In this document: one piece after another, positions 28,168-64,000 of the stretch | Layout: the number at the start of each line of letters is the position of its first letter | Numbering within the stretch: position 1 is the stretch's first letter | Assembly: GCA_002335605.1 (NCBI GenBank) | Contig: BEDY01000003.1 | Coordinates: forward strand, 2,418,001 to 2,482,000 | DNA from: Prillingera fragicola | Taxonomy: Eukaryota; Basidiomycota; Tremellomycetes; Trichosporonales; Trichosporonaceae | Direction of reading: 5' to 3' | DNA length: 64,000 nt | Notes under the pieces: model-generated | The model's database searches: none | Told to the model about the DNA's origin: nothing | The model's input: only the letters and a program-made list of their open reading frames with translations | Translations under genes and position numbers: made by a program

Positions 28168-30090
28168 ATGCTGGCCCCACAACGGGAGCCAGTAGTCCTG
28201 AGACCAATGGGTCTCCCGCCCATCAAGACTACAATCGACAACAAATGGGCATTCATCTTCTTTCGCTTCTGCGCAGAACGACACCAGATGACAGAACGCC
28301 GTCTCGCAGGAGTAGCCCGTGACAAACTAACAGCCGATGAGGCCATGCAGGGTGTGCACATCGGCAATGTGTTCCGACAGCTCGATCCGTCATCGCATCA
28401 CATGAGCGAGAATATCATTGGGAAAGGAGATCAGTCGGTTGAAGAGGTTTGCTGTAAGTTGTGCGACCAAAGGACCCTAGCTTAACCTCCAGTCCGCGTG
28501 TTTCTGTACTGCAGCTTCTACACCAACGCAACCTGGGAACTGCTCTGCAAGGCCGCTGGTGGTATTCCGACATGGCAAAACTTTGAGAACTGCGACATGG
28601 CCAAGATGGAAGAGGCACTGCACGAGCGGAGTATCATGCAAAGCAACAAGATTTATTATGGTGGCTTCCAGATCGTGCCCCCGACAATCTACTTTACCGA
28701 CAACAGGAACAAGAGCGCGACCGAGCCAGATGGGAAGACCATGTATCACTATGCTGCGAGCTTGCGGCTCGTGCTTGCTATCATGGAAATGGGCGTACCG
28801 CAGAAACTGCTCGAGTGCAAGTATGTCCTTCCCTCTGCCGAGTCGGCGCTGACAGCAGGTACGCAATGGATGCAAGTTATCTTCTTCAAACCCTTCCAGC
28901 ATTTGGCGGCTTTCTCTCCCTCAACGTCCTATGCTACCTCAACGAGTCAGCCTCCCCGCACTTCAACTGGCACTACCGCGACTTTGCCACCTGCGGCCCA
29001 GGAGCCCGTGCCTACCTGCAGCGCATGTTCGGCAAGGAGTCGATCAACGGCGTTGCAGCCGAGAATGCCGGACTCAAGTGGCTTAAGGACAATCAATGGC
29101 GATACTGGGCCCGGCTTGGGCTTGATCCCCCGCACGCCTGGCAGGACCTTGCGCCTGGGATGCGGGTGCTGGATTTTGAGAATGCGCTCTGCTGGTGCCA
29201 TCGCTATGTTGCGTCGTACACTGCAAAGGGCCACCGGAGCTTTGCCGATGCGCCGTGGCCCGACTATGACCCGACCATCACTGAGGTCTGTGGGCCGTCG
29301 GCATGGTGTCTGGAAGAAAAGCACATTGGCACGGAACAAGCCGACGACTGCCTGGGACCGTTGTATGGTGAGAACGATCTCTACGAAGTCGAGTCGGTTG
29401 TTGCGCGCTCCGGGCCGTGGTATCGGGTGCGATGGAAGGGGTGGCCGCCTGAGGAGGATACGTGGGAGTTTGAGCAGAACCTGCAGGAAGACGCAGCAGA
29501 CGTGAGTACTCCTCCCTTTGCGGCCAAACTGACAAGCAAAGGCGCTGAAGGAGTGGGTCGACTGGGAAGCAAACGTCGCGACAACAATCCAAGCAGTAAA
29601 GCATCAACCATATACGAAACTCCCAGCGCCCGGCATTGTTCCGAAAGTGGAAACGGCGCGTCCAAAGCGGAAACGCGCAGCCGTACAGCGCTATGCGGCG
29701 CGATATCTCGATCTGGAGGCCGAGGAGGTGCGCGACGAGGTGCAAGTCGAGGAGCCCTCTGGACGTGGGAGAAGGAAACGGCATGCTGCCCAGCCTGGTG
29801 TGGGTCACGGGCTCTACGATCTCGAGGCAGAAGAGGCTCTCCCGGGAGAGGAGGATGACTTCGACGACCAGCACGACGACGAGTACGAAGAGGACTTTGA
29901 GGCTGGGTTCGAGGAGCCCCCTGCTTACTCTCCGCCGGAACCCAAGCGCTCGGTCTCACAGGCCATCCCGCCAGGAACGTACAGGAGCGTCGGGTGCGGG
30001 CCCGTCACATATCGGAGCGTTGGGTGTCAGACCGAGGATCAGCCTCTGCGGGTCATTACTGGGAAGCGGCGAAAGGTTGAAGAGTTGTAG
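28168..30090 (+). CDS. Chromodomain protein with aGPT-PPlase/HMUDK-type helical domain
   Basis: Exons 28168-28453, 28493-28820, 28859-29501 and 29542-30090 encode 601 residues. Introns are 39, 38 and 40 nt. Residues about 20-345 match the pattern of the alpha-glutamyl/putrescinyl thymine pyrophosphorylase clade 3 (5-hmdU DNA kinase helical) domain. Visible blocks are FFRFCAERHQMTERRLAG, HIGNVFRQLDP, LLQTLPAFGGFLSLNVL, CGPGARAYLQRMFG and VLDFENALCWCHRY. Residues about 378-430 are a chromodomain: YEVESVVARSGPWYRVRWKG followed by WPPEEDTWEFEQNL with the aromatic cage Tyr, Trp and Trp/Glu positions. A basic PKRKR stretch and an acidic tail follow. The inferred role is a chromatin-bound factor linked to DNA base modification or its recognition. 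The third exon acceptor is a tandem CAGCAG. tRNA-Ala lies 119 bp downstream. Confidence 0.85.
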
Positions 30091-31379: not shown

Positions 31380-34300
31380 ATGAAGCCTCTTTTGACATGG
31401 CTGTCGTTGGTCTTTGTGACACTGCGTACGTTTCGACTGTCTCGCACACGACTGACATTCAGTGGCCATCATCTCTGTCACTGCGCGGCCGGTGCATCCA
31501 CATCTGCGAAGTAACCGGAATCCAACCGGTGTCGACTACAACCCCTTCCAGGTTGGTACTCATGGCCAGCACAAGAGGGCGCCGCCCAGGCTTTTTGGAC
31601 CTGATGGTCCCAAACCAGAAGATGTCCTTCAAAACCAGTACAGCGACTGCTGGTACATGGGCGGAATGCAAGTCATTGCCCAGGACGCGCCCCAGTTGAT
31701 TGAAGCTTTGTTAGTTCCGGATGGCGACGATGTCAACGTCGACTTTCCCATCGACCCGGACAGGGACAAGAACCCAACGCAATGCAAAGACGCACCCGTT
31801 AAAGTCACACAACAAGACCTTGGAACGCTGGGGGCCCCCAACAGTAGGCCGCGCCCCGGTCCCAACGGGGCACTGTGAGTTTGGTTTGGTTGCTAATACT
31901 GATGGCGCTCAGGTGGCCCAATTATCTCAAGGCAGCTTTGGAGAAAAAGGGAATCCCCTGCAACTCATCACCGACCCGGCGAGTACGTCAAATATGACCG
32001 AATCCCACTCATGAGAGGCAGGCTGACCTTCCAGGGCTTGGAGCTCCTTCTAGGCCGAAACGTCAATTCGAAAAGCATTCAGACAGAGCTCACAAACCAA
32101 CAGCTCGAGAACCTCCTTAAAGACGATTCGGCCATGCGCCTGCTTGGTTCCAAGTCGGATATTGACCTGTTCCCAGGCGCGAAGGAGTATCTGGATTCAT
32201 TGGGGCAGCTTCCCAAACCATTCAAGTCTCCAAAACATGTTTATTCCGTCATCCAATACTTTCCAGGAACTGGTACGAAGGAGGCGTCGTGAGTCTGTCA
32301 AGATGGCGCAACGAAAGCTACTTGCTGACGCGTGAAGTGTGATGCTTCGGAATCCGGATACCTCGATAACGGAAACCTTAACCCTCACTGAGATAAAGCA
32401 TTACTTCAAAACGATTGTTACCGCCGATAAAACGGGTGGGGGAGCCGCGCCTGGACCAGCCCAGTTGTCTAGACGAGCCCCCACCTGTGCCCCACGCAAG
32501 CCTCCCTCTGCAGCAGAGAGGGCCGCCCAAGCTGCAAGGGCAGCAGCTAATGTAGCCAGGGCCGCAAGGGCAGCTGCCTTGGCTGGCCAGTCAGCCGGGG
32601 CAGTTGCTATGGCTGCCTCAGCGGCAGCTGCTGCTGTGCCTGGCATTGCCAGTGCTGCCGCCGCCGCTGCTGCAGCAGCGGCTGTAGCTGCTGCGATTGC
32701 CGCTGCGATCGCTTCCGGAAAGGGCATCTGGGACGCCGTACACGACGGCGAGGATGAGGCTGAAAAGTACGACACGCCCAACGACGATTCTGCCACTGGC
32801 TCCTCCGATCCTGAAGGTGGTGACGACGGTGGCGACGAGCCCGATGATCCAGAGGACAACCCGGGTGACGACTCGCCAGAGCCTACTCCGTCTGATGATG
32901 GTGACGAGCCCGATGCGACATCAACTTCGGACGATGACGGACCATCGCCTAGCACAACTGCCCAGGAGGAGCCCGAGGAGACGCCCACCGCCACGGATGA
33001 TGGCTCAGCCACATCGCCAACTGCTGGTCCCACCGAGGAGCCAACTTTGTCTGAAGATCAGCCTCCTAGCCAGACGACCGCCGAGCCGTCTCCGTCCAAT
33101 ACCGACAGCTCTGAACCGTCATCATCTCCGTCTGAGTCTGAACAGACGCCGTCGGCTACCTCTGCCTCGCCTGGTTCAGAGTCGTCAAGTGCCGGCACAG
33201 CGTCGTCTACTGGCGACACCTCTTTCGTACCCACGGCGTCCTCTTTGTCTCCATCATTGTCTTCATCTCTGTCAGCGTCGTCCTCCAGATTGTCAACATC
33301 GTCTTCCAGAACAACGTCTACGTCTGCAACGTTTACATCTGCGTCTTTGCCCAGCACTTCCTCTGAGACTTCGACCTTCTCTGAGTCGACCTCGGCCACT
33401 GCTTCGTCACAGCCCACGCCGAGTGACGCAACCTCAACCGACGGAGAGGAGTCGCAGACGGACAGTACTGCGACACCCACCTCAGCCACTTCCACACAAG
33501 AGCCGACGTTGTCTGAGGAGCCTACACCTACCGAAGACTCAACTACAGAGGAGCCCACTGCGACACAGGAGCCCACCACCACAGAGGAGCCCACTGCAAC
33601 CCAGGAGCCCACCACAGGGGAACCCACTGCGACCCAGGAGCCCACCACCACAGAGGAGCCTACACCGACCGAAGACTCCACTACAGGAGAGCCCACTGCG
33701 ACCCAGGAGCCCACCACCACAGAGGAGCCGACTGCAACCCAGGAGCCCACCACCACAGAGGAGCCCACTGCAACCCAGGAGCCCACCACCACAGAGGAGC
33801 CTACACCGACCGAAGACTCCACTACAGAGGAGCCCACTTCGACCCAGGAGTCCACCACCACAGAGGAGCCTACACCTACCGAGTCGACTTCAGTGGGCGT
33901 CCCTTCTACCCAGGAGCCCACCACCGCAGAGGAGCCGACCCCTACCGCAGACTCGACTTCAGAGGAGCCCACTTCGACCCAGGAACCCACCACCACAGAG
34001 GAGCCGACCCCCACAGGAGACTCGACCTCAGAGCAGCCTACGCCGACAGAGGAGCCGACCGCAACTGAGGAGCCCACCACCACAGAGGAGCCGACCCCCA
34101 CAGGAGACTCGACCTCAGAGCAGCCTACGCCGACAGAGGAGCCGACCGCAACTGAGGAGCCCACCACCACAGAGGAGCCGACCCCCACAGGAGACTCAAC
34201 CTCAGAGCAGCCTACGCCGACAGAGGAGCCAACCACAACTGAGGAGGAGCCGACCCCGACCGTAGACTCAACCTCAGAGCAGCCTACTCCGACAGAGGAG

Positions 34301-34732
34301 CCAACCACAACTCAGGAGGAGCCAACAACCTCAGCAGAGCCTTCACCGACTGAAGCGCCAACCGTGACTGTAGAACCTCAGCTCTCAGTTCAGCTCAGCT
34401 CCACGGAGGACACTACTACCTTTTCGCCACCCCCGCTGCTTCTGCCCTCGTCGCTGATTGATACCGACACGATCACCTTTACTCCGCCTCCGCTGCTCCT
34501 TCCGTCCAGCCTGTACGAAACAGACTCTCCCGCTACGGAGCCCACCCCGGAGCCCACTCCGACTCCTACCCCGGACACCAACAATTGTGCGATATCTGGA
34601 CGATGCCCCTTCCCACCACCGGGTGGCTGGCAGTCGCAAGATGGCAATGAGCCCCCGGAGCCCGAAGAGACATTCACTGCCGAGTCCGAGCCACTCCCAC
34701 CGCACAACCCGGGAGTTCCTCCCCCTTGGTGA
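31380..34732 (+). CDS. Secreted calpain-like mucin-type protein, copy A
   Basis: Exons 31380-31425, 31463-31874, 31913-31982, 32035-32288 and 32338-34732 encode 1058 residues. Introns are 37, 38, 52 and 49 nt. Residues 1-24 form a signal peptide (MKPLLTWLSLVFVTLLAIIS). Residues about 55-290 resemble a C2 (calpain) protease core: QNQYSDCWYM with Cys78, a substrate-domain block ALWPNYLKAALEKKG, His244 in HVYSV and Asn266 in LRNPD, so the triad positions are all present although the Cys motif is atypical. A long Ala-rich helical block, about residues 320-385, is followed by IWDAVHDGEDEAEKY, an acidic stretch, and roughly 500 residues of Thr/Ser/Pro/Glu repeats suited to O-glycosylation. No GPI signal or membrane anchor is seen at the C-terminus. 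Calpains are normally cytosolic, so secretion is odd. A paralogue lies inverted at 44466-47449. Confidence 0.8.
33490..34332 (+). repeat. Coding tandem repeats of calpain-like gene A
   Basis: The first part is made of 36-nt units (EEPTATQEPTTT and variants such as EEPTPTEDSTTG). From about 34000 a longer 87-nt unit (EEPTPTGDSTSEQPTPTEEP plus ATEEPTTT) recurs nearly perfectly about three times, with a shortened last copy. The near-identity at DNA level implies recent unequal exchange or slippage. Confidence 0.9.
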
Positions 34733-35155
34733 CAGCTTTACTGTACACTAGCTGCTGCTGGCCAGCACATTCTGCAGACGAATCCGTGTATTCCTTCACC
34801 ATTTATACCTGTTAGTATTGCCTGATGTGACCCGACTGACTGTGAGCATAAATGCTGCGGTGACTTGTATTGTGGTGGAGGTCGAGTTTGCCACTCATCA
34901 TCATCCTTTGCCCACTCACTCTCTCAACCAACCCAGTTGATAACTACTCACACGCCGTCTGGTCTTCAACCGTCTTGCTTCAAAACTGGGCAACGATCTA
35001 CAGCTCACAAACGATCTCTGGTCGTTCCAGGGCACCGCCAATACGTCCTTCTGCATCGGCAAGTGATGAGAACAGATCGCGCCAGTCTCCACCCGTCGAC
35101 TGTACCGTTTCGCACATCGAATAACGAGCGTCGAAAAGCCATCGCAGCGGCAGAC
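34733..35155. other. Intergenic and leader
   Basis: 3' side of calpain-like gene A and leader of the coiled-coil gene. The downstream frame is open back to 34865, and an in-frame ATG at 35066 is an alternative start. Confidence 0.45.
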
Positions 35156-36334
35156 ATGGACTTCGAGAAACTCATGTACGCCGCCGAAACCCAAAATGAA
35201 GTCCACGCATGCGAGAAGCAGGAGATACAAGGCGCCGAGGAGGACGACTCGAGCTCTGAACTCGACACCACAGTCATCGTTCATCAGCATCAGCCTGTGC
35301 CCACTCCTACATCCGACTCGGCTCCACCGCCCACAGTCTCTCGCGCCGGCCAATACTTGCAAGCAGCCCGGACAGGCCGTCTTTCTTCCGCGTTCGTTAC
35401 CCCCTCGGCGACCGCTCGGCTTCTTCCCGGATCGTCTTCGGCGTTCACCAATCAGCTCCTCGGCTCTCGCACTGCGCGACGCGTTCCAGCCACAGCGGCG
35501 CAGCCAGCGCCCGGTTTGTTCCTACAGCAGCCCCCGCCGCCCCCTCTCCCGGTGGCAGCTTTACATCTTGCAAAAGACAATGCTGCATCGAGACCATCCG
35601 GGCCTACTACCTCGAGCAACACACCTGCCAAACCCTTCCAGCGTCCACTCAAACCACGCGATCTTAACCAACCCACCGTCACCAAGCCCACCCAGCTACC
35701 CAAACCACTCCCACCTCGTCGCTCGTCTCTCTCAGGTCTGGATATTGCCAATCTCCAAACCGACCTTGCCCAGCTTGGCACCGAAATCGACACGCACTCG
35801 AGTAATCTCAAAGACATCGCCTTCAACGTCCTCGAGGTGGCGCAGGAACAGGTTGGGTCCTGGCAGACCGAGATTTCGGATGTGGACAAGCAGATTCGCC
35901 GGCTCAAGGCCAAGCGTGCCGAGATTGCTGGCCAGAGGGAGTGGGGCAAGGGACTCGTGAAGGTGTTGCAGGGCATGGTCTGTCATGACTCTGTGGTTGG
36001 CGGTGAGGATGAACCAGCGGCCACCACACATTCGGCACGAACGGCAATGGTAAAGGGCAAGACTTCAGCCAAGGGCAAAGTCTCCACCAAGACGGCAATG
36101 AACGTCTCTGCCGCTCGACGTCTGACGCTGTTTGGCAGCGTCGCGGAGCCAGAACCAGCCATGCGCACCGAGGCGGTGAGCGCGCTGTATGACCGGTGGC
36201 GCGACGAGGTGGCTCCTGCCCGCAGTGTGCTGTTCAGTACCTGTGAGGTGTACAATGAGGTCGAGGGGAGGCTGCAGCGAGGGATGCAGAGTGGGTCGTC
36301 CATGAATGAGAAGGAGCTTTGCCAGGGAAAGTAG
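35156..36334 (+). CDS. Coiled-coil protein of unknown function
   Basis: A single exon encodes 392 residues from ATG 35156, chosen for its context (GACATGG) and the folded-looking sequence that starts there. ATG 35066 in the same frame would add 30 residues. An acidic segment is followed by a Pro/Ser-rich linker to about residue 195. A coiled coil spans about residues 198-265 with heptads such as LQTDLAQLGTEID and ISDVDKQIRRLKAKRAEIAG. A second basic linker and a C-terminal helical part (ALYDRWRDEVAPARSVLF) follow. No catalytic motif, signal or membrane segment is visible. The layout would suit a kinetochore, spindle or cytoskeletal adaptor, but nothing identifies it. Confidence 0.65.
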   Translation: MDFEKLMYAAETQNEVHACEKQEIQGAEEDDSSSELDTTVIVHQHQPVPTPTSDSAPPPTVSRAGQYLQAARTGRLSSAFVTPSATARLLPGSSSAFTNQLLGSRTARRVPATAAQPAPGLFLQQPPPPPLPVAALHLAKDNAASRPSGPTTSSNTPAKPFQRPLKPRDLNQPTVTKPTQLPKPLPPRRSSLSGLDIANLQTDLAQLGTEIDTHSSNLKDIAFNVLEVAQEQVGSWQTEISDVDKQIRRLKAKRAEIAGQREWGKGLVKVLQGMVCHDSVVGGEDEPAATTHSARTAMVKGKTSAKGKVSTKTAMNVSAARRLTLFGSVAEPEPAMRTEAVSALYDRWRDEVAPARSVLFSTCEVYNEVEGRLQRGMQSGSSMNEKELCQGK

Positions 36335-36787
36335 TCTTCTGTACGGCACAGAGAGCATGTAGCGTCATGAATGGAGGGCGAGTGACAATGCTGGCGAGTA
36401 CTCATTTAACGGCAGAGGTAGCCAAGAGACCCCTCCTTTGGCATTGCTCATCCCGAAGCTCCTGCCTAGGACTGCCTTTCAGTGCGGCGATTACTCTGCG
36501 CACAGGGCGAGCGGTGGGTTCTAGGAAGGCCATGACAATGTAGTACATTCTGGACATTTTGTGGCGATGTACGAAGTGGTCACTGCCAGGCTACAGCACC
36601 ATGCACACTATCAAGAAGTGCAAGAGGGCGCTGAGTACAACATCTAGTCTTTGAGATGGAGCAGTGTTTCCTTTAAAAGTAAACGTGGCACAGACCATCT
36701 AGTCATCACCACAACCCAGCCTTGACTCTTCAACACTCGCAGCTTCAAAAGACCATGCATGTATGCACACACATGCAAAAAGGAACT
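36335..36787. other. Intergenic
   Basis: 3' side of the coiled-coil gene and downstream flank of tRNA-Ile. No gene is seen. Confidence 0.5.
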
Positions 36788-36878
36788 GACCACTGACAGG
36801 ATCGAACTGCCGACCTTTGCATGACTGATATCTATCAAGATATTAGTACAATGCTCTAACCAGCTGAGCTAAGCGGCC
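36788..36878 (-). tRNA. tRNA-Ile(AAT) with an 18-nt intron
   Basis: From 36878 on the minus strand: acceptor GGCCGCT pairs with AGTGGTC, D stem GCTC/GAGC, anticodon stem TTGTA/TGCAA, and loop CTAATA with anticodon AAT. The intron follows position 37. The T arm is GGCAG-TTCGATC-CTGTC with one weak pair. Five T residues (36781-36777 complement) follow as terminator. Confidence 0.92.
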
Positions 36879-37160
36879 TTGGATGTTGTCGACTGGGAGA
36901 TGCGTTTGTGTGTCGGCCTGAAGGATGACCGACCGAGTTGCCAATTCAAAGGCCCTATGCATAGACATGAATACGACACGTACGAGAGTGCGAAAGGTGC
37001 AGATGAGCCGACTGAATGGACGAGAGACTGCGCAAAGGTTGTTAAAGTCACAACGGAAGCAAAAATGTGTGTTCGCCCCGACACTGTCCTCCTCTGCAAC
37101 AGTTGTCTTCCTCTTCAAAAACAAAAGATACAAGCGTCGCAAGACGCTGCAGCCATTTCT

Positions 37161-37248
37161 CTCTCAACTGTGAGTCGAACACAGGACCTGCGGATAGCTA
37201 TAAGGAAACAGTTACAGTCCGACGCTCTACCAACTGAGCTATTGAGAG
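37161..37248 (-). tRNA. tRNA-Tyr(GTA) with a 16-nt intron
   Basis: From 37248 on the minus strand: acceptor CTCTCAA pairs perfectly with TTGAGAG. C1:G72 is the eukaryotic tyrosine identity pair. The anticodon loop CTGTAA carries GTA, and a 16-nt intron follows position 37, as expected since eukaryotic tRNA-Tyr genes nearly always have an intron. The T arm is CTGTG-TTCGACT-CACAG. It lies 282 bp upstream of tRNA-Ile on the same strand. Confidence 0.93.
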
Positions 37249-37602
37249 GTTGATGTTGATGTTGGTCAAGTGGCGTGATGGACGGCCGCGAGAGAAGGTG
37301 TGCTTTGCAGACGCAAGAGAGCTTACTGGAGTGAAGCAGGTGAACCGTGAACTCATGCTGAGGACGAGCCCTGAAGGGCCAGTGAAGAGGGGTAGCGGAG
37401 GGAGCGAGAGAGTGCGAGCAAGTGGCGTCCTCCAATCACGGAAGCCCTTCGCCATCCCGGCCAACGACCCTTGCACAAACACAATGCATATACTTATTCC
37501 TTGTACAATATTTAACTAGCCCCATTGCATACTATACTAATTGGCTCATGATCCGCAGCACTCTCTTCGCCACGATCCGCAGTAAACTCGGCCTTTAAAG
37601 TC
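37249..37602. other. Intergenic
   Basis: Upstream flank of tRNA-Tyr and 3' side of the membrane-protein gene. No gene is seen. Confidence 0.5.
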
Positions 37603-39226
37603 CTACATTGTCGATTTCTTCTCCGAGGAACCCGGCTGCGGCGCAGGCCCAGCGTCCTCGTCATGCACGACCCAGCGGTGCGGCCGCGCGTCGTCGTGGG
37701 AGAGGGGCTGCATAACGGCGTCGTCGTAGTGATACTTTTGGTGCGGGTCGCTCGACCCGGCGCCGACAGAGTATCGTGCAGCCGTCGACGGCGGGTCAAC
37801 CGAGTATCGCGGGTTTGAGCGGCCCGAATCGACCTCCTGATACGCTGGGATGTCGCTTGGACCATCATACTGCTGCCCGTACGACATTGGCGCTGGGTTG
37901 AGTGCGGTCGAATCAGCCACGGCGTGCCGCTCAGCAGCAATCTCCCTTGCTTTGGCGTTGGGCAGCAGCGGAATCATGTCGTGCCGCTGGTATCCTACCG
38001 TAGCAGACGGGTCGGCGTTGATGGCCACGGGAGCTTCAAACTTGACGTGCTCGTCGTCAATCGTAAACCCTTCCTCTGACTGGGTGGATTCCGGCTTGCG
38101 TTTGCGTTTGCGGCAGCAGAAGAAGATGAGCGCGCCGAGAGCCAAAAGAGCCACGACGCCGCCTACGACGCCGCCGGCAATGGCGCCGACGTTTGTCTTT
38201 TTGCCTCCCGACTTGCCCTTCCTGCGCTGTTAGCTGGGGAGAGGTTGGCAACTCACGACACGCCGCTGTGGAACACGAGCCTGTCGAGGCGGTATGTCGC
38301 GTCGACGCCGCTGGAAATAGTCATGGTGTACGCGTGCGCGGGGTTGAGGGCCGTCATGTAGAGCAGTGCGTTGGCTGCAACGGGCATCTTGGTGGTGATT
38401 GGAATCGTGCGGCTGTCAAACGGCGTCGGCGGCGGGCCGTCTGCGCCAAAGTCGATCTGGATGCTGTCCATGCTGGGGCCCACCGAGCCAAAGAGTTGGA
38501 GATACGCCGTGTTCGGAGGGATAGGGACAGTGACGGCCGAACCCTTGCCCCCGACGAGACCTCTCTGGCTGCTCGCGAGATTGTCTGACGGTTAGTGGGA
38601 GCTGAGCACGAGGACTTACTGTAGCCTTCCTGTATAGTGTTGGCGATGGAGAATCCTCCAGTGTACTTGAAGTCGCCATTGTTCTGTCCGCTGACGACGA
38701 ACGGCGCCGTAGAGGTCTTGACCTCGGACATTCTTGAGCTAGCGGTCAGCGTCGACACGGCCGTGTTCACCTACACGTCTGCCTTTATGCCTGTCGTTAT
38801 CATCATCTCGGTAATGCTCAGCCTAGAGTTGCTGCTCTGGCCTGTCTGCAGGTCGAGGCTGTGCCTGCCCCAAGCCATTTCGCTCGAGTTGATAATGGGC
38901 GACTGTTGAGCAATGTTGACAGTAGCTCGGTCTAGCGTTGCCTTCATGTTGCCAGCGGCCCCTTGAACACTGCCGTACACGTTCACGAGCGTGCCGACAA
39001 AGTCGAGCTGGAACCCAGAGTACGAGCCCGAAGTCCACCGTTCCTGCTTGTTGGCGCTCCATGTCGGTTTGCCCGGCGAGTCGTATTCAGCCCAGTTGAC
39101 AACGGCATCTAGGTGCGTGATGGTGTAGTTGAAGAACAAGTTGGGCGACCAGTCGGCAGTCTGTGCACTGGTCGACCCCAGGTGCGCGAGCACGATGGCG
39201 ACGGCGACGGGGAGCCCGCTCCTCAT
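37603..39226 (-). CDS. Type I membrane protein with two-part ectodomain
   Basis: Minus-strand exons 39226-38777, 38722-38620, 38584-38257 and 38221-37603 encode 499 residues. Introns are 54, 35 and 35 nt. A signal peptide (residues 1-22) precedes an ectodomain of about 280 residues with two related-looking halves. One has the WSPNLFFNYTITHLDA block, the other the YLQLFGSVGPSMDSIQIDFG block; each has predicted beta strands. A Gly-rich transmembrane helix lies at about 302-325, followed by CCRKRKRK and a 170-residue cytoplasmic tail rich in Tyr, Ser, Pro and Asp. Many basidiomycetes encode such proteins, possibly cell-wall sensors or carbohydrate binders; no function is known to me. The first intron's acceptor (38723) is the least certain, since other AGs occur nearby. 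Confidence 0.78.
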
Positions 39227-40203
39227 GCTGCAAGCTGTGGTCAACGCAGGGAGGCAACCGTAAAGTATGCAGGAATGGTCAGTGTATGTGAGGAGGGGAC
39301 ATGGAGGACTTGTCTCAACGAGGGAAGGTACGGCCACTGCTGCTTGGACATGCCATGATGACCGCTGACCGCTGACCCACCCAACACAGCCATCCATACA
39401 ACCATCCAGTGACCACAGCTTACTTGGGTCATGGTTGTTCGGGTGCCTAGAGTAGAGTGTGGCATTTGTGCTATCGAGAAAGCACAACACGAGAGGAGCA
39501 TGCTGTGGTACCTGACACGGCGGGTGCCTCTGAGCATGCCCGCCTGTCACATCCACAACAAGCCATTCCGCGGAGCCACAGCCACTGTGGAGACTGCACT
39601 CACAAAGCAAAGCGCGCGTTGTTGACAACCTCATAATACTTGGTGTTCAATGAACAGCGACGCCTACCGGCACGCTAGGTTGTGCCCACCACGCTCAGCT
39701 CTGGTGTGACCTCCGCTACAGCGGCTCGCCTGCACCTACGAGCAAGCGATAGAGACCATTTCGGCGCAATGTCCTGAGCAGCAATGAAACCTGCAGCAAC
39801 AAAGCCCAATCCCAGTCGGGTTGAGTGTGCACTGGTCCGTGCAACGCGCCAAACCATGTCGGCCGCCTTGATCGCGCATCCAAGCACCTCAGTTCTTGCA
39901 GAATGTGCGCGAGATCCAGCCGTCTCCGGAGCACTGCAGTGCTCGCCGCCAGCCACCAGTCAGTCACCGAGAGGACGAAACACGTTGTCATGATCATTAC
40001 AACTCCTCAGCCACCACGTCTGCCTCCTCGCACCTGCTATGGCTTGCAGTCGCAAACGTCGCCGCCGCACGTCGCGATTCCTCCGCCGAGATACTGCGTG
40101 AGGCGCGAGTATCGCTTCACCAGCGGGTGCTCGAGGATGCTCTGCCCGGGGACAGTCTCGTCTTGCAAGCTGTCTGTCAGCCCTTCTCCCGCGAGGCTAC
40201 GCA
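39227..40203. other. Intergenic
   Basis: Promoter of the membrane-protein gene and 3' side of the alpha/beta hydrolase gene. Short open frames have no motif. Confidence 0.5.
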
Positions 40204-41602
40204 CTAGTGCTTGAGCAAGTTGTGTCCCGGGCGGTTGAGCCGCGTAAAGACCCGCCCGCCAAACCCGCCCATGTACGTGGGGATGCGCTCCCGCACGCTC
40301 GTGGGCGACTTGAGCGCCTCCACGCGCTGGAGGTTGATGTCGCGCTGGGACAGGCTGATGCTCGCTGCCGACTTGTCGCCGCCGACCTGGATCGCCGAGC
40401 CGACGACGCCGAGCATGGCGACGGGGTCGAGCTCGTTGGCAAAGTGCTCGACGTGGCGGAACGGGCGTTTGGCGCCCTTTGTGAATGGGTGGGGCGAGTC
40501 GGCCGTCGGGGGGCTCTGGTCGACGGATGGGAGCACGGGGTTGGAAAAGTGGTTGGCAGCCGAGGCAAACGTGTAGAATTCGACCTTGTGCAGCATGTCG
40601 TGGGGAAAGTCTGTCAGGAGCTGGTCGGCCCACGCCGTGCAGATGATGCCGCCCTGCGAGTGGCCGAGGATGATGACGCGCTCAATCTTCTCGTCAGCGA
40701 TGGCTTTGCGGATTTTCTGCGCTGTCAGCTTGCACTTGCGCCGCCCACGCACCTTGTAGCCGCCGCGGACATCGGTCGTCGAGAGGAGCAGGTCGCGCTG
40801 CAGGATGCACTCGCCGACGTCAAAGAGCATGCCCAGCGTCTTGTTGTGGATACCATAGATCTTGCGGCCAAAGAGCTCATGGAACCTGTTCGCCGCGATT
40901 TGGGCACTGGCCTTGGACGTGTTGATACCGTTCACGCTGTTGCGTCAGCGAGACTATCACTGGTGCATGCTGGGGTTCATTGCGTGCTCGCCGTGGGCCG
41001 GATGCTGCGCTGTCTTGCACACCAGCGCAGTGGCCGTCACGCACCGCACGCCGTCGCTACGCTCTCGCCAGTACTCACTAGAACCACCGCTCGTTGTCAA
41101 ACTTGGGATCCGCCTCGCCGTGACTCTCAAACTCAAACTCTCCCTGGGCCGAGAAGCACGCCTTTGCATACAGCCCAAGCGCGGGGATGCCCAGAAGGGG
41201 CGGCGCGAGGAACAGGGGGATGCTAACCACCAAGCTGCCGAGGACCATTGCGTAGGCGCCCAAGCGCGACGAGAGCGGCTCGGTGGGCGTCTGGGTCTTG
41301 ATGCCTGTTGGGCGGGCAATGTTGAGCCATTTGGTCGGGCTGTTGAGGACAAACTTTGTGTCGCGCCAGAGGAGGCGCCAGGGGGCTTGCCTGAAGAGCA
41401 GCGGGGCCGAGGTGGCGTCGATCTCATACTTGATGTCAAAGGCGATCATCGAGTTTTCAGGCTGGCCGGGTGCAGCGGCGGCGGCGGGGGGTGGGAGGGC
41501 AGCATTGGTGTTTGGGTCAATGGCTGGTTTGGATGGTCCGCCGTCTGTAGAGGTTGATGTGCGGCTGTGGTCGTCTGCGTGGGGGAGGGAGGAGGGGGCC
41601 AT
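40204..41602 (-). CDS. Fungal alpha/beta hydrolase (lipase-like), membrane associated
   Basis: Minus-strand exons 41602-41079, 40936-40753 and 40716-40204 encode 406 residues. The first intron is 142 nt. The second (36 nt, GTGCGT...GCTGACAGCGCAG) is in frame and stop-free; I remove it because the joined block GGYKKIRKAI fits the family and the intervening residues do not. A hydrophobic hairpin at about 122-158 suggests membrane association. The block WFYVNGINTSK opens the hydrolase part, and Ser256 in LGHSQGG is the likely nucleophile. KVEFYTFASAANHFSNP and HVEHFANELDPVAMLGVV carry the likely Asp and His region. The family is widespread in fungi and uncharacterised; esterase or lipase activity is inferred. 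Confidence 0.82.
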
Positions 41603-42707
41603 TGTGTGTGTGGGTGCGTGTGGATGTGTGTGTGAGTGTGGATGGAAGAGAGAGATGTTGTCAAAAGCACAATCAGAAACGGGTGGCAAAGTGACGAATG
41701 ACGAGTGGATGGAATGACAGGTGACGTGAACAGCGGATGCGATCTCTGGTAGAGTAGCGCGAGATCCCACATGTACAGTCTCTACACTGGTCTCTCGCTC
41801 TCTCACTACTAGGGAACGCATGCTAAACCTTATCCTGCTCAAACTCTAAATCCACAGCCACAGCAGCCGCAAGAGCGACAGGCAGAGACAGAGAAGGGAT
41901 TTGTTGACACTGCTATAACGGAATGCTGGCTTGTTCCTGGCAGAACCCATGTCTCTTCCGCACTCGTGCTGCTGCTGCTGCTTCTGCTCGCTCGTCGTGT
42001 GCTGCTATGCGATCTATGCGTTAGGTGCACTCTCTCCCTCTCATCACCTGACCAGTCTGTCACAACACTACCCTGTGCATGCATGCCCTGCAGGACAAGA
42101 CGCGATAACAAGTCGTCGTACTCTCTTGGTATCACGTGACTTACTCTGCTCTCATTTACCCTTTGAGCGTTACCAATTGGCCGACCTTGTTTTCTAATGT
42201 ATATGCCAGGGGAAGTGTACATTGTGCAAAGGGGTAAAATAGACATAAACAGCATACAGCAGAGAGGGGAACAAGGGGGGGGAACAAGCAGGGGACCCAA
42301 TGTGTTGTCGACACAATCACAACTGATAAAGAATAAAAGCTCTACAGACACCCAACCACCCAGTTACATACGACGCGTCTTCCACTCTTCCCAACTGAAT
42401 TAGCTCCCCACTCTACCCTGCTCAACTGCCGACGTCCTCAACTGCCGAACCGCACACCGAACAACGATGCATTGTACTCCACCCTGGTTTAACGTACTTA
42501 CCCACACGGAGCGTATCGCAGTCGTATAAATCGTAACTCGGCTCGAGATAGTGGGCAAGCCACCTTCCGTATCGCAGCCGCGCTGGTGACATCTCGTATC
42601 GCAGCTCGGCAACATGCATGCCCGGGCAACAGGATATAACCAGCATACGCTCGACCACAAGCCCACCTCACCCACTTTCTTTGGACTGTGTTACTACACA
42701 ACGCACG
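41603..42707. other. Divergent promoter region
   Basis: Separates the hydrolase (minus) from the carbamoylase gene (plus). It contains a GT-rich microsatellite-like leader at 41602-41650, a CACGTG E-box at 42133-42138, a TATAAA at 42525-42530 and three CGTATCGCAG copies between 42512 and 42604. Confidence 0.55.
42512..42604 (+). promoter_or_regulatory. Three copies of CGTATCGCAG upstream of the carbamoylase gene
   Basis: Identical 10-bp copies at 42512-42521, 42568-42577 and 42595-42604, 104-196 nt before the ATG. All are in the same orientation. The reverse complement is CTGCGATACG, containing a GATA core. They are probably binding sites of one regulator. Confidence 0.55.
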
Positions 42708-44051
42708 ATGACTGTTAAAAAGTATCAGCCCGGCGACCTCAAGGTCAATGCCAAACGACTCAACGACACGCTCCACGAGACATGCGAGTGGGGTGCCGCG
42801 CACCGGTACGGCGAGTATGTATCGGGAACGTGCGCTCAAGCACCACTGACAACCAGCCAACCAACGCAAACCGGCATGGCGCGCCTTGCTCTCTCCGACA
42901 CGGACAGGCAGGTGCGCGACTGGTTTGTGGCCGAGATGAAGAAAATCAACTGCACGGTGCTGGTCGACGAGATGGGGTCGCTGTTCGCGATCCGAAAGGG
43001 TAAGAAAGACGGACCGCCGACAGCCATGGGCAGCCACCTGGACACGCAGCCGACAGGCGGGCGGTACGACGGTATCCTCGGCGTGCAGAGCGCAGTGGAA
43101 GCCATGCGGGTGCTGCACGAGAACAATGTCGAGACGGAGTATCCGGTGTGCGCGATCGACTGGACCAACGAGGAGGGAGCGCGGTTCCCGAAATCCCTGC
43201 ATGCGAGTGCGGTGTGGGCGCACGACGAAACGCTCGCCGACGCGCATGCGCTCGCCGATGTCGCTGACCCGAGTATCTCGACGATCATGGAGCTCGAGCG
43301 GATCGGATACAAGGGCGAGACCAAGTGTTCATACGAGGCGAATCCGATTGCGGCCCACTTTGAGCTGCACATTGAGCAGGGGCCTGTGCTCGAGAACGAG
43401 GGGCTCAAAGTCGGCGTCGTGCAGGGTGGCCAGGGGTATAACTGGTTCAACATCAAGATCAAAGGCCGGGACTCGCACGCGGGCACGACGCCGCTCGACC
43501 TCCGGGCCGACCCGCTGCAGGCTGCTGCGCAGATTATTGTCATGTCCAAGCAGGTCGCGGTCAAGCATGGCGGGCTCGCTACGACGGGCATCTTCCATCT
43601 CCTCCCCGGGTCCGTCAACACGATCCCGCACACGGTCGAGTTTAGCCTCGACATTCGCCACACGCAGGACGCGGTGCTGGCCGCGATGGAAAAGGAGATT
43701 CGCACGGCGGCCGACGCCATTGTCGCCGGCGACGACTACACCGCGTGCACCATCGAGTGGACGTATCTCTACGGCCACTCGGTGGTGCAGTTCCACCCGG
43801 CCTGCATCTCCGCGGTGCGCCAGGCAGCAGAGTATGCCGTCGGCAAGGACCAGACACGCGACATTGTCAGTGGCGCAGGCCACGATAGCTGCGCGACGGC
43901 GCGTCATGTGCCCACGGCCATGATTTTCATTCCCTCGGAAAAGGGCCTGTCGCACAACCCACACGAGTACTCTACGCCCGAAGACTGTGCTCTCGGCGCG
44001 CAGGTGTTGCTGGATGCTGTCATGCTGTATGACTCGCAGAGGACGGCGTAG
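42708..44051 (+). CDS. N-carbamoyl-L-amino-acid hydrolase / beta-ureidopropionase-like (M20 family)
   Basis: Exons 42708-42814 and 42857-44051 encode 433 residues. The 42-nt intron is in frame and stop-free; removing it gives HRYGDQPTQTGMARL, the family's conserved start. The enzyme is a dinuclear-metal amidohydrolase of the hydantoinase/carbamoylase group, which includes yeast PYD3 beta-alanine synthase and AllC-type enzymes. Metal ligands are visible in GSHLDTQPTGGRYDG (His, Asp), WTNEEGARF (Glu), HIEQGPVLE (His) and SHNPHEYS (His). SGAGHDSC is the family's substrate region. It releases ammonia and CO2 from N-carbamoyl amino acids in pyrimidine, hydantoin or ureide breakdown; the exact substrate is not readable. 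No targeting signal is seen. Confidence 0.92.
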   Translation: MTVKKYQPGDLKVNAKRLNDTLHETCEWGAAHRYGEYVSGTCAQAPLTTSQPTQTGMARLALSDTDRQVRDWFVAEMKKINCTVLVDEMGSLFAIRKGKKDGPPTAMGSHLDTQPTGGRYDGILGVQSAVEAMRVLHENNVETEYPVCAIDWTNEEGARFPKSLHASAVWAHDETLADAHALADVADPSISTIMELERIGYKGETKCSYEANPIAAHFELHIEQGPVLENEGLKVGVVQGGQGYNWFNIKIKGRDSHAGTTPLDLRADPLQAAAQIIVMSKQVAVKHGGLATTGIFHLLPGSVNTIPHTVEFSLDIRHTQDAVLAAMEKEIRTAADAIVAGDDYTACTIEWTYLYGHSVVQFHPACISAVRQAAEYAVGKDQTRDIVSGAGHDSCATARHVPTAMIFIPSEKGLSHNPHEYSTPEDCALGAQVLLDAVMLYDSQRTA

Positions 44052-44465
44052 GTGGGTAGCGTCGTATGCAAGATAATCTCCTGCTGCTATCCTGCCCAGG
44101 GTGGCTTGCGAGACAGCTGCGGCATAAACACATGCTATATCGGCATGCTACTAATCCAGTCCTGGACGGTAACGAGGTGGCAGACCGCGTCGCTGAGAGC
44201 AATGCTAGTTTCAAGGGAGCCTACTATACTTGCCGTGCTAGGGGAACAACTTTATTTCACCATTAATTTCGAGCCCAAGCAGTATTAATTTCACCGCCCT
44301 GGCCGGCCTGAGGTCACAGAAGGTGGTTGGTGGTGCAGATGTGAACAGATCCGGCCAGACATATGAGCAAGCTCGACCCAGTTGCGCGGACGTTCGCCAT
44401 TAGTGCCGGTATCCATCCGCAGACACATATTCATATACACACTACAAACACTTTCTTCTCGCACG
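44052..44465. other. Convergent intergenic region
   Basis: 3' sides of the carbamoylase gene and calpain-like gene B. No gene is seen. Confidence 0.5.
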
Positions 44466-47449
44466 TCAACCGTCGCATGGTATCCACGTCGGGATGCCAC
44501 CGAGGGGGCTAAACAGGCAAAACTCCTGTTTCGGCGGGGGGGTGATCTCGGCGGGCTCCCCCAAGCCACCGATGATGGGTGACACGATGGGCTTTGGCGG
44601 GGGCCGTTCGCAGGGCCAGTTGCCAAACTCGGCGTGCGGGCCAGAGCACGTGGACGGACCCTTTGACGTAACAGCCGGCTCAGCCGGGCTGCTGGATGGC
44701 GGCAACGGCGGCGGCACTGAAGTCGAGACTTCCTCTAGCGCCGCAGTCGAGCTTGTGACATCGCTCGACGAGGCCGCGGTCGTAGGTGCGGTCTCTGTGG
44801 ACGACACCTCAGTTGTAGGCGAGGCTTCCGTGGTCGACATCTCAGCCGACGTGGGCTCTGTGCTCGACATCTCAGTCGAGGGCGTGGGCTCCGTGGTCGA
44901 CAGCTCAGTCCAAGTGGGCTCTGTGGTCGACATCTCAGTCCAACTGGGCTCTGTGGTCGACATCTCAGTCGAGGGCGTGGGCTCCGTGTTCGATGTCTCA
45001 GTCCAAGTGGGCTCTGTTGTCGAAATCTCAATCGAGGGCGTGGGCTCTGTGGTCGACTCCTCGGTCGACGCCTCAGTCGTAGGAGCAGGCACTGAAGTCG
45101 TCACCTCAGCCGAGGATGTGGGGTCCATGGTGAACGTTGGCTCTGACCACGCTACCGAGCTGGTACTCGATTCCGCCCATGAAGTCGAATCGGACCCGAC
45201 ATTCTCGCTGGTTGCTGGTGAGGCTGTCGGATCAACCGAGGCTGAAGCGGCGTCGGACCAGGTGGGCTCGGAGGATGAGGCTGACTCGGACCATGATGCC
45301 GTCTCCAGGGAGACTGTGGAAAGACTGGATCCGCCCGACGCAGTTGGTTCAATGGACGAGGGAACCCAGGCGGTCGGCTCAAATGAGGATGAAGACGCCG
45401 CCCAAGACGTAGACTCGGACGAGCCGGATGGCTCAATCCACGTTGAAGTCGGGTCAAACCATGAAGAGATCGTCGAAGAGGCAAAGTTTCCCGAAGACAG
45501 TGAGTTGCTCCTCCAGGCCGACGAGGAGGAAGGTTGTTGTTCAGACCACGCGACTGGTACGCTGGAAGAGGTGGATTCAGATGAGCTTGCAATGTTGCTG
45601 GGGTCAAGCGTTTGAGACGACGCAGAGGACGGCTCCTGCAAAGTTTGAGACGTGGCAGGGAGCGAACCCGCTGAACCGAAGTCACTGAAACTTGACGTTG
45701 CCAAGATCTGAGCCGCACTGGCAGCGGGGTCGATGGAAGTGGCCGACTGGGCAATGGATACGCTCGCAGTCGGTTCAAATGTCTCACTGATGGCCGACTC
45801 GCTGGACACAGAAACTGCGACGGCTGTGGGTTCCACTGTTGCTGTCGCCTCCTGGTCAGAGGCATCGGTGGCATCTGGCTCATCCTCCGCGGCAGAGGTT
45901 GGCTTCTCATCGTCGCCATCATCCGCGGCAGAGGTTGGCTCCTCATCATTGCCTTCGGACGGAGTCTGGTCGTCATCAGAGCCGTTGTTGTCTGAGTTGT
46001 CTGAGTTGTCCGAGTTGTTGTCGCCCGAGTTGACGGCGGATGAGTAGTCAGGCGCGTCGTACTTTGCCGCTTCCTCCTCGCCATCACGTATAGCGTCCCA
46101 GATGTTCCGCCCGGCTGCAACAGCACCGGCAATTACACCGGCCACAGCAGTAGCAGCAGCCACGGCTGCTGCTCCATTCGCAGCGGCTGCGGCAGCAGCA
46201 GCCGCCGCTGCAGCTAAAGCCGCTGCCTCCCCAGCCAGTGCTGCTGCCCGAGCAGCCTTGAGGACATCTGCTGCTGCCTTGGCTGCTTGAGCAGCTTTCC
46301 TTGCAGCTTCTGCAGCACTACGAGCGCTGTCGAATTTCGGAGGGGGGCGTGGGCAACGCGACGCTTGCCGCCGGGTGAAAGAATCCAACAGTCTGCTGGC
46401 TGCTGCCGACTTGAAGTATGTCATGAATTCGTCCAAACCCAGAAATTTGCTCTGTCCGGTAGTCACATCGTAGAGCTGCATGCTAAAGAAGTCAGACAAT
46501 TCATTGAGCATTACTCACAGGCCCATTTTTGCTTTGTTTCCCGCATCTCCGTAATAGGTCATGCTGTACACATGTTGAGGGATGTAAAAAGGTTGCTCTC
46601 CTGTACCAGCCCGCCATTCCCTGGTGCCGGGGAAGTGGTCGAAAACCCAATTCCACCAGTCGACGGACTTCGTTGTAAGGCTTTTAGGAGGTCCTTTAGT
46701 CCCAGTCACGACAATGTCGCCTTTGAACTTGGTGAACCATTTATGCAGTTCGGACATGTCGCGGCTGCTGACGGTAATTCTGTCTGGCTTTATACCGATC
46801 AGAGTTTCAAGTCCCTGTGAGGGTCAGCTACATCAGGCTTGTATAAATGAGAAATCACTCTATGAACGGCATTGCGATCATTGCATTTGAGATCGGGAAA
46901 ACGGGACCTCACGCCTGCTTTCAAGTATTGGGCCCACCTGGCTGGCATCAGCAGCTGAGCGTTGAGGGGACGATGATGCACTCACTCGGCGCCACTTTGT
47001 CCTAATCGAGGTACCCCAGACTTGGTAATGCTGGATGTGGGGACGTTGAAAGGTGCGTACCGGCATCCTTTAAAGCGGTCCTGGTCCATTGGCAGCGTAA
47101 CTTGCACCTGGCCGTCGATTATCCCAATCTTATCGGTGATCAGCTGGGGATTTTGGGAAACCATAGCATGCATTGCCGCAAGGAGCCAACAGTCGTCGGC
47201 CTGGCCTTGCAAGATGTCGTCAGCCTGTGGACCAACAGCTGGATCCCATAATCTAGGGGGCGCCCTCTCGAATAGAGCCCTGGCAGTCTGGGGATGGTCA
47301 CGATGCAAAGTGGTGTTCGTGGGTAAAGTGGTTGCCGAGTGGAGTGGCAAAGGTCCTGCTGCGGCTGTGTCTGGTTAGGATGCTGTTCACAAGATATGCC
47401 GCTTACCCAGTGCGCAGCACAAAGCCAGCCAGGGGACGAAAAGCCTCAT
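44466..47449 (-). CDS. Secreted calpain-like mucin-type protein, copy B
   Basis: Minus-strand exons 47449-47407, 47364-46986, 46937-46859, 46814-46519 and 46482-44466 encode 937 residues. Introns are 42, 48, 44 and 36 nt, at positions matching copy A. The signal peptide is MRLFVPWLALCCALAAAG. The C2-like core has a canonical QADDCWLLAAM motif (Cys73) and HVYSM (His248), but the position of the catalytic Asn in copy A (LRNPD) reads MQLYD here, so the triad looks broken. As in copy A, an Ala-rich helix, IWDAIRDGEEEAAKYDAP, an acidic Asp/Asn/Ser run and a long Ser/Thr/Glu mucin-like region follow. The C-terminus ends with a short Cys- and Pro-containing segment and no membrane anchor. It probably acts outside the cell, as adhesin, wall protein or pseudo-protease; this is inference. 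Confidence 0.8.
44795..45080 (-). repeat. Coding repeats of calpain-like gene B
   Basis: Units of about 33-36 nt encode variants of STTEPTxTEM and STTEPTPSTEM. They are more diverged than the repeats of copy A and use a different consensus, so the arrays expanded independently. Confidence 0.8.
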
Positions 47450-63699: not shown

Positions 63700-63783
63700 G
63701 CCTGGTTATATCAGTCGGTAGATAGTTTGACTCTTACTCTTATAAGATATCAAAATGTCATGGGTTCGAGCCCCATACTAGGC
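63700..63783 (+). tRNA. tRNA-Lys(CTT) with a 12-nt intron
   Basis: Acceptor GCCTGGT pairs with ACTAGGC (one G:U). D stem TATC/GATA, anticodon stem TTTGA/TCAAA, loop CTCTTA with anticodon CTT, then a 12-nt intron. The T arm ATGGG-TTCGAGC-CCCAT is perfect. T runs at 63811-63814 and 63817-63821 are terminator candidates. Confidence 0.92.
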
Positions 63784-64000
63784 TACAGCACGGTTGCAAG
63801 GCCGCGTATCTTTTGCTTTTTGGAGGACTGCAGGAGAAGATTTGACGAGGGCTACGCGTTCAGTGCGAAATCATATCGCCAGGGCAACCTCGACGCGTTC
63901 GCACTACTCGCATAGCGTTGGACCCTGCGATAAGGATGTTTGTTAGGGTATGGCCCAGATCTGGGGCGATCGACCAATTCTACTGCAACTAGAACATTGG

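Follow-up and report, generated by a model that had tools for sequence, protein, structure and literature searches.

Introduction

Eukaryotic calpains are mostly cytoplasmic according to the portions of PMC4631099 available to us, and the same portions record a predicted signal peptide on C2 peptidases of Geobacter lovleyi, Segniliparus rotundus and Bacteroides thetaiotaomicron. These secreted bacterial calpains resemble the five-member fungal family described here (genes A to E) in having a predicted signal peptide, and they differ from it in host and in partner domains, as with discoidin in Bacteroides. In Schistosoma mansoni, extracellular calpain activity that is calcium-dependent is reported together with the tegumental calpains SmCalp1/2 (PMC5635006, in the parts available); activity outside the cell is a likeness to what is proposed for the present family, calcium dependence is a difference, and neither a mucin-like tail nor a "signal peptide" is described in those parts of the article. 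Export of a calpain is therefore not new in itself, and the statement in an earlier note on this DNA that calpains are normally intracellular holds for most eukaryotic members but has to be qualified by the three bacterial and the Schistosoma exceptions.

Bacterial-type minimal calpains (P0001-P0016, see below) share the C2 domain with A, B and C and have no calpain III or EF-hand domain in their precomputed Pfam lists. P0001, the one protein of the 16 that was inspected, ends just past the C2 domain, whereas A to E extend further. The described fungal calpain PalB/Rim13 (calpain-7 type) is not known to have a signal peptide. It shares the C2 domain with the family and differs from it by an MIT domain (PMC4631099, in part), and human calpain-7 is described in the same source as lacking both calcium sites. 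PalB has been listed among larval haemolymph proteins during Aspergillus fumigatus infection, alongside normally intracellular proteins (PMC11261830, in the part available), which counts against the novelty of the present family. Gels run in an arsenite study of Trichosporon asahii identified two hypothetical proteins, A1Q1_00754 and A1Q2_04745, which have weak Pfam C2 matches (E 0.0021 and 0.0072) in one segment, a mass of 53.7 kDa and a C2 domain at 157-470 and 157-477, respectively (PMC4111368, in part); compared by description only, they are possibly kin of the five-member family.

The available parts of other sources add little: only a non-secreted calpain is mentioned in those of PMC3320591, the PalB gene is tabulated and nothing more in those of PMC5810475, no secreted fungal calpain is named at the 12 places seen, of 16, in PMC10318531, and the terms "signal peptide" and "secreted" are absent from PMC4977516 and PMC13413365. 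Judged from the titles and abstract openings among the top literature matches, a signal-peptide calpain with a mucin-like tail was not found in a fungus.

Two Convergent Genes with a Common Architecture

The window, meaning the whole stretch of 64,000 nucleotides that was analysed (C3:2418001-2482000), comes from a genome of 20.2 Mb in 17 contigs. Table 1 collects the features of its two calpain-like genes, A and B. Each has four introns, at aligned positions and in phases 1, 2, 0 and 2, and the two share one order of parts, namely a predicted signal peptide, about 30 further residues, a core of about 240 residues, an Ala-rich segment of about 70, an IWDAxxDGExEAxKYD block and a Ser/Thr-rich tail. 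The genes converge, with 9.7 kb between the stop of A (34732, plus strand) and that of B (44466, minus strand). The calpain-like architecture of A and B that the earlier note had reported is thus confirmed as an observation, including the matching introns, the Ala-rich segment, the common block and the convergence at about 10 kb. Measured from the end of contig C3, B starts at 27 kb and A at 43 kb; visual inspection of the final 1.3 kb showed no telomere repeat, and a subtelomeric siting is not claimed.

Table 1. Features of the calpain-like genes. Coordinates are positions in the window, except for the last row, which gives contig positions.
Feature	Coordinates	Strand	Remarks
Gene A	31380-34732	+	1058 aa; spliced frame open to the stop, GT-AG introns; also retrieved by genome search
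Gene A exons	31380-31425, 31463-31874, 31913-31982, 32035-32288, 32338-34732	+	GT-AG splicing
A, predicted signal peptide, residues 1-23, split by intron 1	31380-31485	+	hydrophobic FVTLLAII, mean 3.1
A, Lys-Arg 53-54, candidate Kex2 site immediately N-terminal to the core	31573-31578	+	24 residues before Cys
A, calpain-like (C2) core, about residues 55-289, exons 2-5	31579-32422	+	hhalign 96.5%, 210 columns; Pfam C2 15.8 bits, below cut-off
A, catalytic Cys78; Gln72 at -6	31648-31650	+	alignment
A, catalytic His244	32236-32238	+	alignment
A, catalytic Asn266 (LRNPDT)	32351-32353	+	alignment
A, Arg-Arg 306-307, C-terminal to the core	32471-32476	+	
A, Ala-rich segment, residues 318-390, about 60% Ala	32507-32725	+	low-confidence two-helix model
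A, block IWDAVHDGEDEAEKYD, residues 391-406	32726-32773	+	
A, Ser/Thr/Pro/Glu tail	32774-34729	+	40% Ser+Thr; 37 EPT triplets; Cys pair 1011, 1017 near the end
Gene B	44466-47449	-	937 aa; spliced into a single open frame
Gene B exons	47449-47407, 47364-46986, 46937-46859, 46814-46519, 46482-44466	-	GT-AG splicing
B, predicted signal peptide, about residues 1-17, split by intron 1	47357-47449	-	hydrophobic LALCCALA, mean 2.7
B, catalytic Cys73	47189-47191	-	alignment
B, catalytic His248	46572-46574	-	alignment
B, Asp271 at the catalytic Asn position	46467-46469	-	alignment
B, Arg-Arg 303-304, C-terminal to the core	46368-46373	-	no dibasic site before the core
B, Ala-rich segment, residues 321-392	46104-46319	-	
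B, block IWDAIRDGEEEAAKYD, residues 393-408	46056-46103	-	
B, Ser/Thr-rich tail, STTEPT-type repeats	44469-46055	-	37% Ser+Thr; four Cys near the end
Tandem paralogues D and E	C6:991949-994845 and C6:996738-999714		

Other features of the window lie around the two genes. In an open frame at 28587-29855 (plus strand), a chromodomain (33.1 bits) comes after the helical domain of a 5-hmdU DNA kinase (HMUDK_hel, 99.9 bits), an odd pairing that is possibly that of a mobile element. A peptidase M20 family amidohydrolase at 42600-44048 (plus strand) is convergent with B and ends 0.4 kb from the stop of B. ARAGORN reports a tRNA-Thr at 37160-37248 and a tRNA-Lys at 63700-63784; the minus strand at 36780-36880, where it reports nothing, resembles by eye an intron-bearing tRNA gene.

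A Family of at Least Five Paralogues

Genome searches identify at least five members, with A, B and C on contig C3 and D and E on contig C6; since these searches score the best candidates only, five is a lower bound. The suggestion of a family in the earlier note is supported by these members. Paralogue C (904 aa, minus strand, starting at C3:2365316) and the divergent paralogue D (905 aa) were found with the A and B cores, and paralogue E (903 aa), which has the orientation of D and begins 4.8 kb upstream of it, was found with D as the query. With E itself as the query, only E and D appear among the matches listed. All five paralogues have four introns in phases 1, 2, 0 and 2, where intron 1 of D has an uncertain acceptor and is assumed to be 148 bases long. 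Two weak matches were rejected, one on C8, which reads by eye as prolyl-tRNA synthetase, and one on C1, where no calpain-like frame was seen by eye. A PF00648 family search of the same genome gave no matches, and its positive controls likewise gave none.

Identity in the core is 51% for A and C, 35% for B and C, and 34% for A and B, so that A is nearer to C than to B and the two genes of the window do not form a sister pair. The "inverted pair" of the earlier note therefore stands as a description of orientation, but the pair is not self-contained. Core divergence between A and C (dN 0.42, with dS saturated at 2.98) is consistent with purifying selection.

The paralogues vary outside the core. 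The octapeptide EEPSPTTT occurs 33 times in the tail of C and is absent from A and B. D and E have no Ala-rich/IWDA module and instead have a doubled Cys motif of the CVLPPPACLIVPCATGFCPD type and a basic C-terminus that starts TRQCRR. A genome search with the doubled Cys motif has only D and E among the matches listed.

Relationship of the Core to Calpains

Against Pfam PF00648 (Peptidase_C2, curated cut-off 23.8 bits), the profile to which the earlier note had pointed, paralogue D scores above the cut-off at 27.9 bits, while A (15.8), B (20.2), C (18.9) and E (20.6) all fall below it. The matches cover profile positions 44-244 in D and 47-245 in E. Peptidase_C2 is nonetheless the sole family named in a Pfam scan of the A, B, C and D cores at E<=10, and E has one other weak match, to LRV_2 (14.5 bits, under its cut-off). 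No Pfam family is found at E<=0.1 in the last exons of the five paralogues.

A profile of A, B, C and D was run against 5.8 billion proteins, and a single one of the 7009 candidates, P0001, was reached at E<=1 (E 4.2e-6). It carries PF00648 and is 29% identical to A over 32% of A. As a query, P0001 retrieves 16 proteins at E<=0.001 including itself, from metagenomes and genomes and all with PF00648, and the alignment of these 16 served as our calpain reference profile. Compared singly with this profile by hhalign, the five paralogues reach probabilities of 96.5% (A), 95.7% (B), 98.6% (C), 95.8% (D) and 95.5% (E), and A, B and C together reach 98.8% over 216 columns (range for A, B and C 210-216). 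P0001 was obtained with a profile that included D, and the single comparisons of A, B and C are independent of D. The best of 120 shuffled sequences (40 each of A, B and C) reaches 5.2%, three reversed sequences reach at most 4.5% and 60 column-shuffled alignments at most 3.2%. Given these controls, the match of A and B to calpains is not due to chance, and the C2-protease-like core first described in A and B is borne out. The matched stretch in both runs from before the Cys to past the Asn or Asp. We conclude from these profile comparisons that the cores of A to E are homologous to the calpain catalytic domain (peptidase family C2).

Direct searches of the PDB by sequence gave weak results. 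With B as the query, a sequence search of the PDB lists calpain-8, calpain-9 (two entries) and calpain-3 at E 0.5-1.2 beside unrelated chains; the same search gives no calpain for A and no match of any kind for D, and B as a protein-search query reaches none of 2873 candidates at E<=1. A scan of bacterial genomes gives five weak partial relatives, in Nocardia, Rhodoblastus (two), Aureispira and Myxococcales. A structure predicted for the exon-2 piece of A together with 20 relatives has a mean pLDDT of 58, finds no counterpart in the PDB at E<=0.001 and shows a helix that begins near the Cys; because the piece is only part of the domain, this fold test is uninformative.

Outside the C2 domain, neither calpain III nor EF-hand domains are present in the A to D cores (Pfam, E<=10) or in the E core and the five last exons (E<=0.1). 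The Pfam scans of the family also contain no MIT domain and the N-termini are hydrophobic, a combination that suggests that A to E are not PalB/Rim13.

Catalytic Residues and Calcium Sites

The Gln six residues before the Cys, the Cys itself and the His are kept in all five paralogues, and the Asn in four (A, C, D and E), with spacings of 166-192 residues from Cys to His and 22-24 from His to Asn. In the surrounding NPWG motif, A and C have lost the Trp (NPD instead of NPW), and B has neither the Trp nor the Asn.

These departures bear on whether the proteins are still peptidases. They could instead be secreted surface glycoproteins that are no longer catalytic, in which the calpain fold serves as a binding module and the Ala-rich segment, the block and the tail carry the function. 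Of 267 calpain homologues, 29 are non-peptidases (PMC4631099, in the part available), and besides the Asp of B and the missing Trp of A and C, the core is more divergent than the Ala-rich segment and block: A and B are 34% identical in the core and 66% in that segment and block (80% for A and C). Since 35-38% identity is expected there from the composition of the Ala-rich part (about 38% for A and B), the higher identity of this region tells us only part of what it seems to. Against a loss of activity stand the conserved Cys, His and Gln and the Asn of four paralogues, and an Asp in place of the catalytic Asn is tolerated, so that a peptidase may still function, as in the yeast PalB peptidase (same source). 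A purely non-catalytic role therefore seems unlikely to us.

The calcium requirement was considered through the residues of the two calcium sites, of which site 2 was compared by eye for A only. Residues of site 1 were placed by eye, by offset from the catalytic Cys, with the numbering of that Cys in the reference calpain taken as an assumption of ours. In rat calpain-2, site 1 comprises Ile89, Gly91, Asp96 and Glu175 (PMC4631099, in part). The Asp is found in all five paralogues, the Gly in A, B and C only, and the helix Glu (after a conserved Trp) in D and E only, with Lys in its place in A, B and C. Site 1 is thus incomplete in every paralogue, which makes calcium independence the likelier reading for the family.

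Predicted Export and Processing, and the C-Terminal Regions

Signal peptides were called by hydropathy alone, as the maximum eight-residue Kyte-Doolittle mean. The N-terminal peaks are 3.1 (A), 2.7 (B), 3.2 (C), 2.1 (D) and 1.8 (E), so the predicted signal peptides are convincing in A, B and C and weak in D and E; on this measure, those first noticed in A and B are retained. Cleavage in A would presumably fall between VTA and RP, on the (-3,-1) rule. It is also important to consider whether the first exon belongs to the gene, because it comprises just 43-46 bases and could have been wrongly joined to the core of an intracellular calpain-like protein. An exon 1 in the same phase is found in 5/5 paralogues, and at the N-terminus A and C agree in 63% of the first 52 aligned positions, which makes such a misjoining highly improbable.

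Kex2 cleaves after Lys-Arg or Arg-Arg pairs. A dibasic site lies 24 residues before the Cys in A (Lys-Arg) and C and 27 residues before it in E (Arg-Arg). B has Glu-Arg where A, C and E have the dibasic site, and the sole dibasic pair before the Cys in D is a Lys-Arg only 11 residues upstream of it. C-terminal to the core, a dibasic site is present in all five paralogues. Further pairs occur inside the cores of A, C and D, so that at least some pairs would have to escape cleavage. Two further core Cys are aligned in A, B and C (123/115/125 and 169/159/172, respectively), as is one after the core (311/309/311), which suits an oxidising compartment.

The Ala-rich segment is modelled as a helical hairpin at low confidence (mean pLDDT 52). 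Its lowest 21-residue sums on the biological scale, +1.2 (A), +2.2 (B) and +1.5 (C), are not those of a clearly inserting transmembrane anchor, although its 19-residue Kyte-Doolittle means are high (2.1-2.2). An amphipathic helix was considered and dropped, as shuffled sequences had a moment as high in 769 (A), 188 (B) and 3212 (C) of 5000 cases. In a genome search with the Ala-rich/block module, the matches listed are A, B, C and one weak match on C7 (E 0.04) and no others.

The mucin-like character of the tails is upheld by their Ser+Thr content (Table 1), and they extend for 655 residues in A and 532 in B, counted from KYD. By hydropathy, no strongly hydrophobic GPI or membrane anchor is seen at the C-terminus of any of the five paralogues, where the best 15-residue means within the last 40 residues are -0.63 (A), 1.11 (B), 0.49 (C), 0.14 (D) and -0.78 (E). 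"Surface" is therefore a weaker description than "secreted", and of the earlier "surface or secreted" the export signal is retained while the surface stalk is not.

The lack of such an anchor also fits a peptidase that acts within the secretory pathway or the vacuole, for which the signal peptide would serve entry only, and having a signal peptide does not by itself show where a protein ends up. Long Ser/Thr-rich tails and dibasic sites are, on the other hand, common in exported fungal proteins, and the C-termini PPPW (A), PCDG (B) and PCPP (C) are not ER-retention tetrapeptides, so that we regard a destination inside the cell as quite unlikely.

Discussion

Weighing these observations, we find it probable that the five genes encode secreted, Kex2-processed, calcium-independent calpain-like cysteine peptidases with an O-glycosylated tail. 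A cleaved signal peptide would take the protein into the secretory pathway, where Kex2 would remove a short propeptide at the Lys-Arg or Arg-Arg just before the core (in A, C and E). The Ser/Thr-rich tail may be O-mannosylated and would extend the protein or retain it within the layer of wall or capsule, and the core would cleave proteins outside the cell with a Cys-His-Asn site (Asp in B) and no need for calcium. Against this explanation count the weak N-termini of D and E, the missing dibasic site before the core of B, the short distance of that of D from the Cys, the altered NPWG motif of A, B and C, the Pfam scores below the cut-off in four of the five paralogues and the single relative found in the protein search.

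A more far-reaching reading, which we hold to be possible but rather doubtful, is that an exported zymogen with Kex2 sites on both sides of the core arose in a fungal lineage from a minimal calpain of the bacterial type. Cutting at both would free a soluble calcium-independent peptidase, and the Ala-rich/IWDA part with the tail would remain as a separate wall component. On this reading the family would be a branch of eukaryotic calpains made for the classical secretory pathway, and we know of no second one.

If the explanation of a secreted, processed peptidase is true, eukaryotic calpains extend beyond the cytoplasm and this fungus has an expanded, exported branch of them. As this branch lies mostly under the Pfam threshold, threshold-based secretome surveys would miss members of it. 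The family would also be a test case for the rebuilding of a cytosolic protease fold for the secretory pathway, by way of a signal exon, a propeptide, extra cysteines and the loss of calcium sites.
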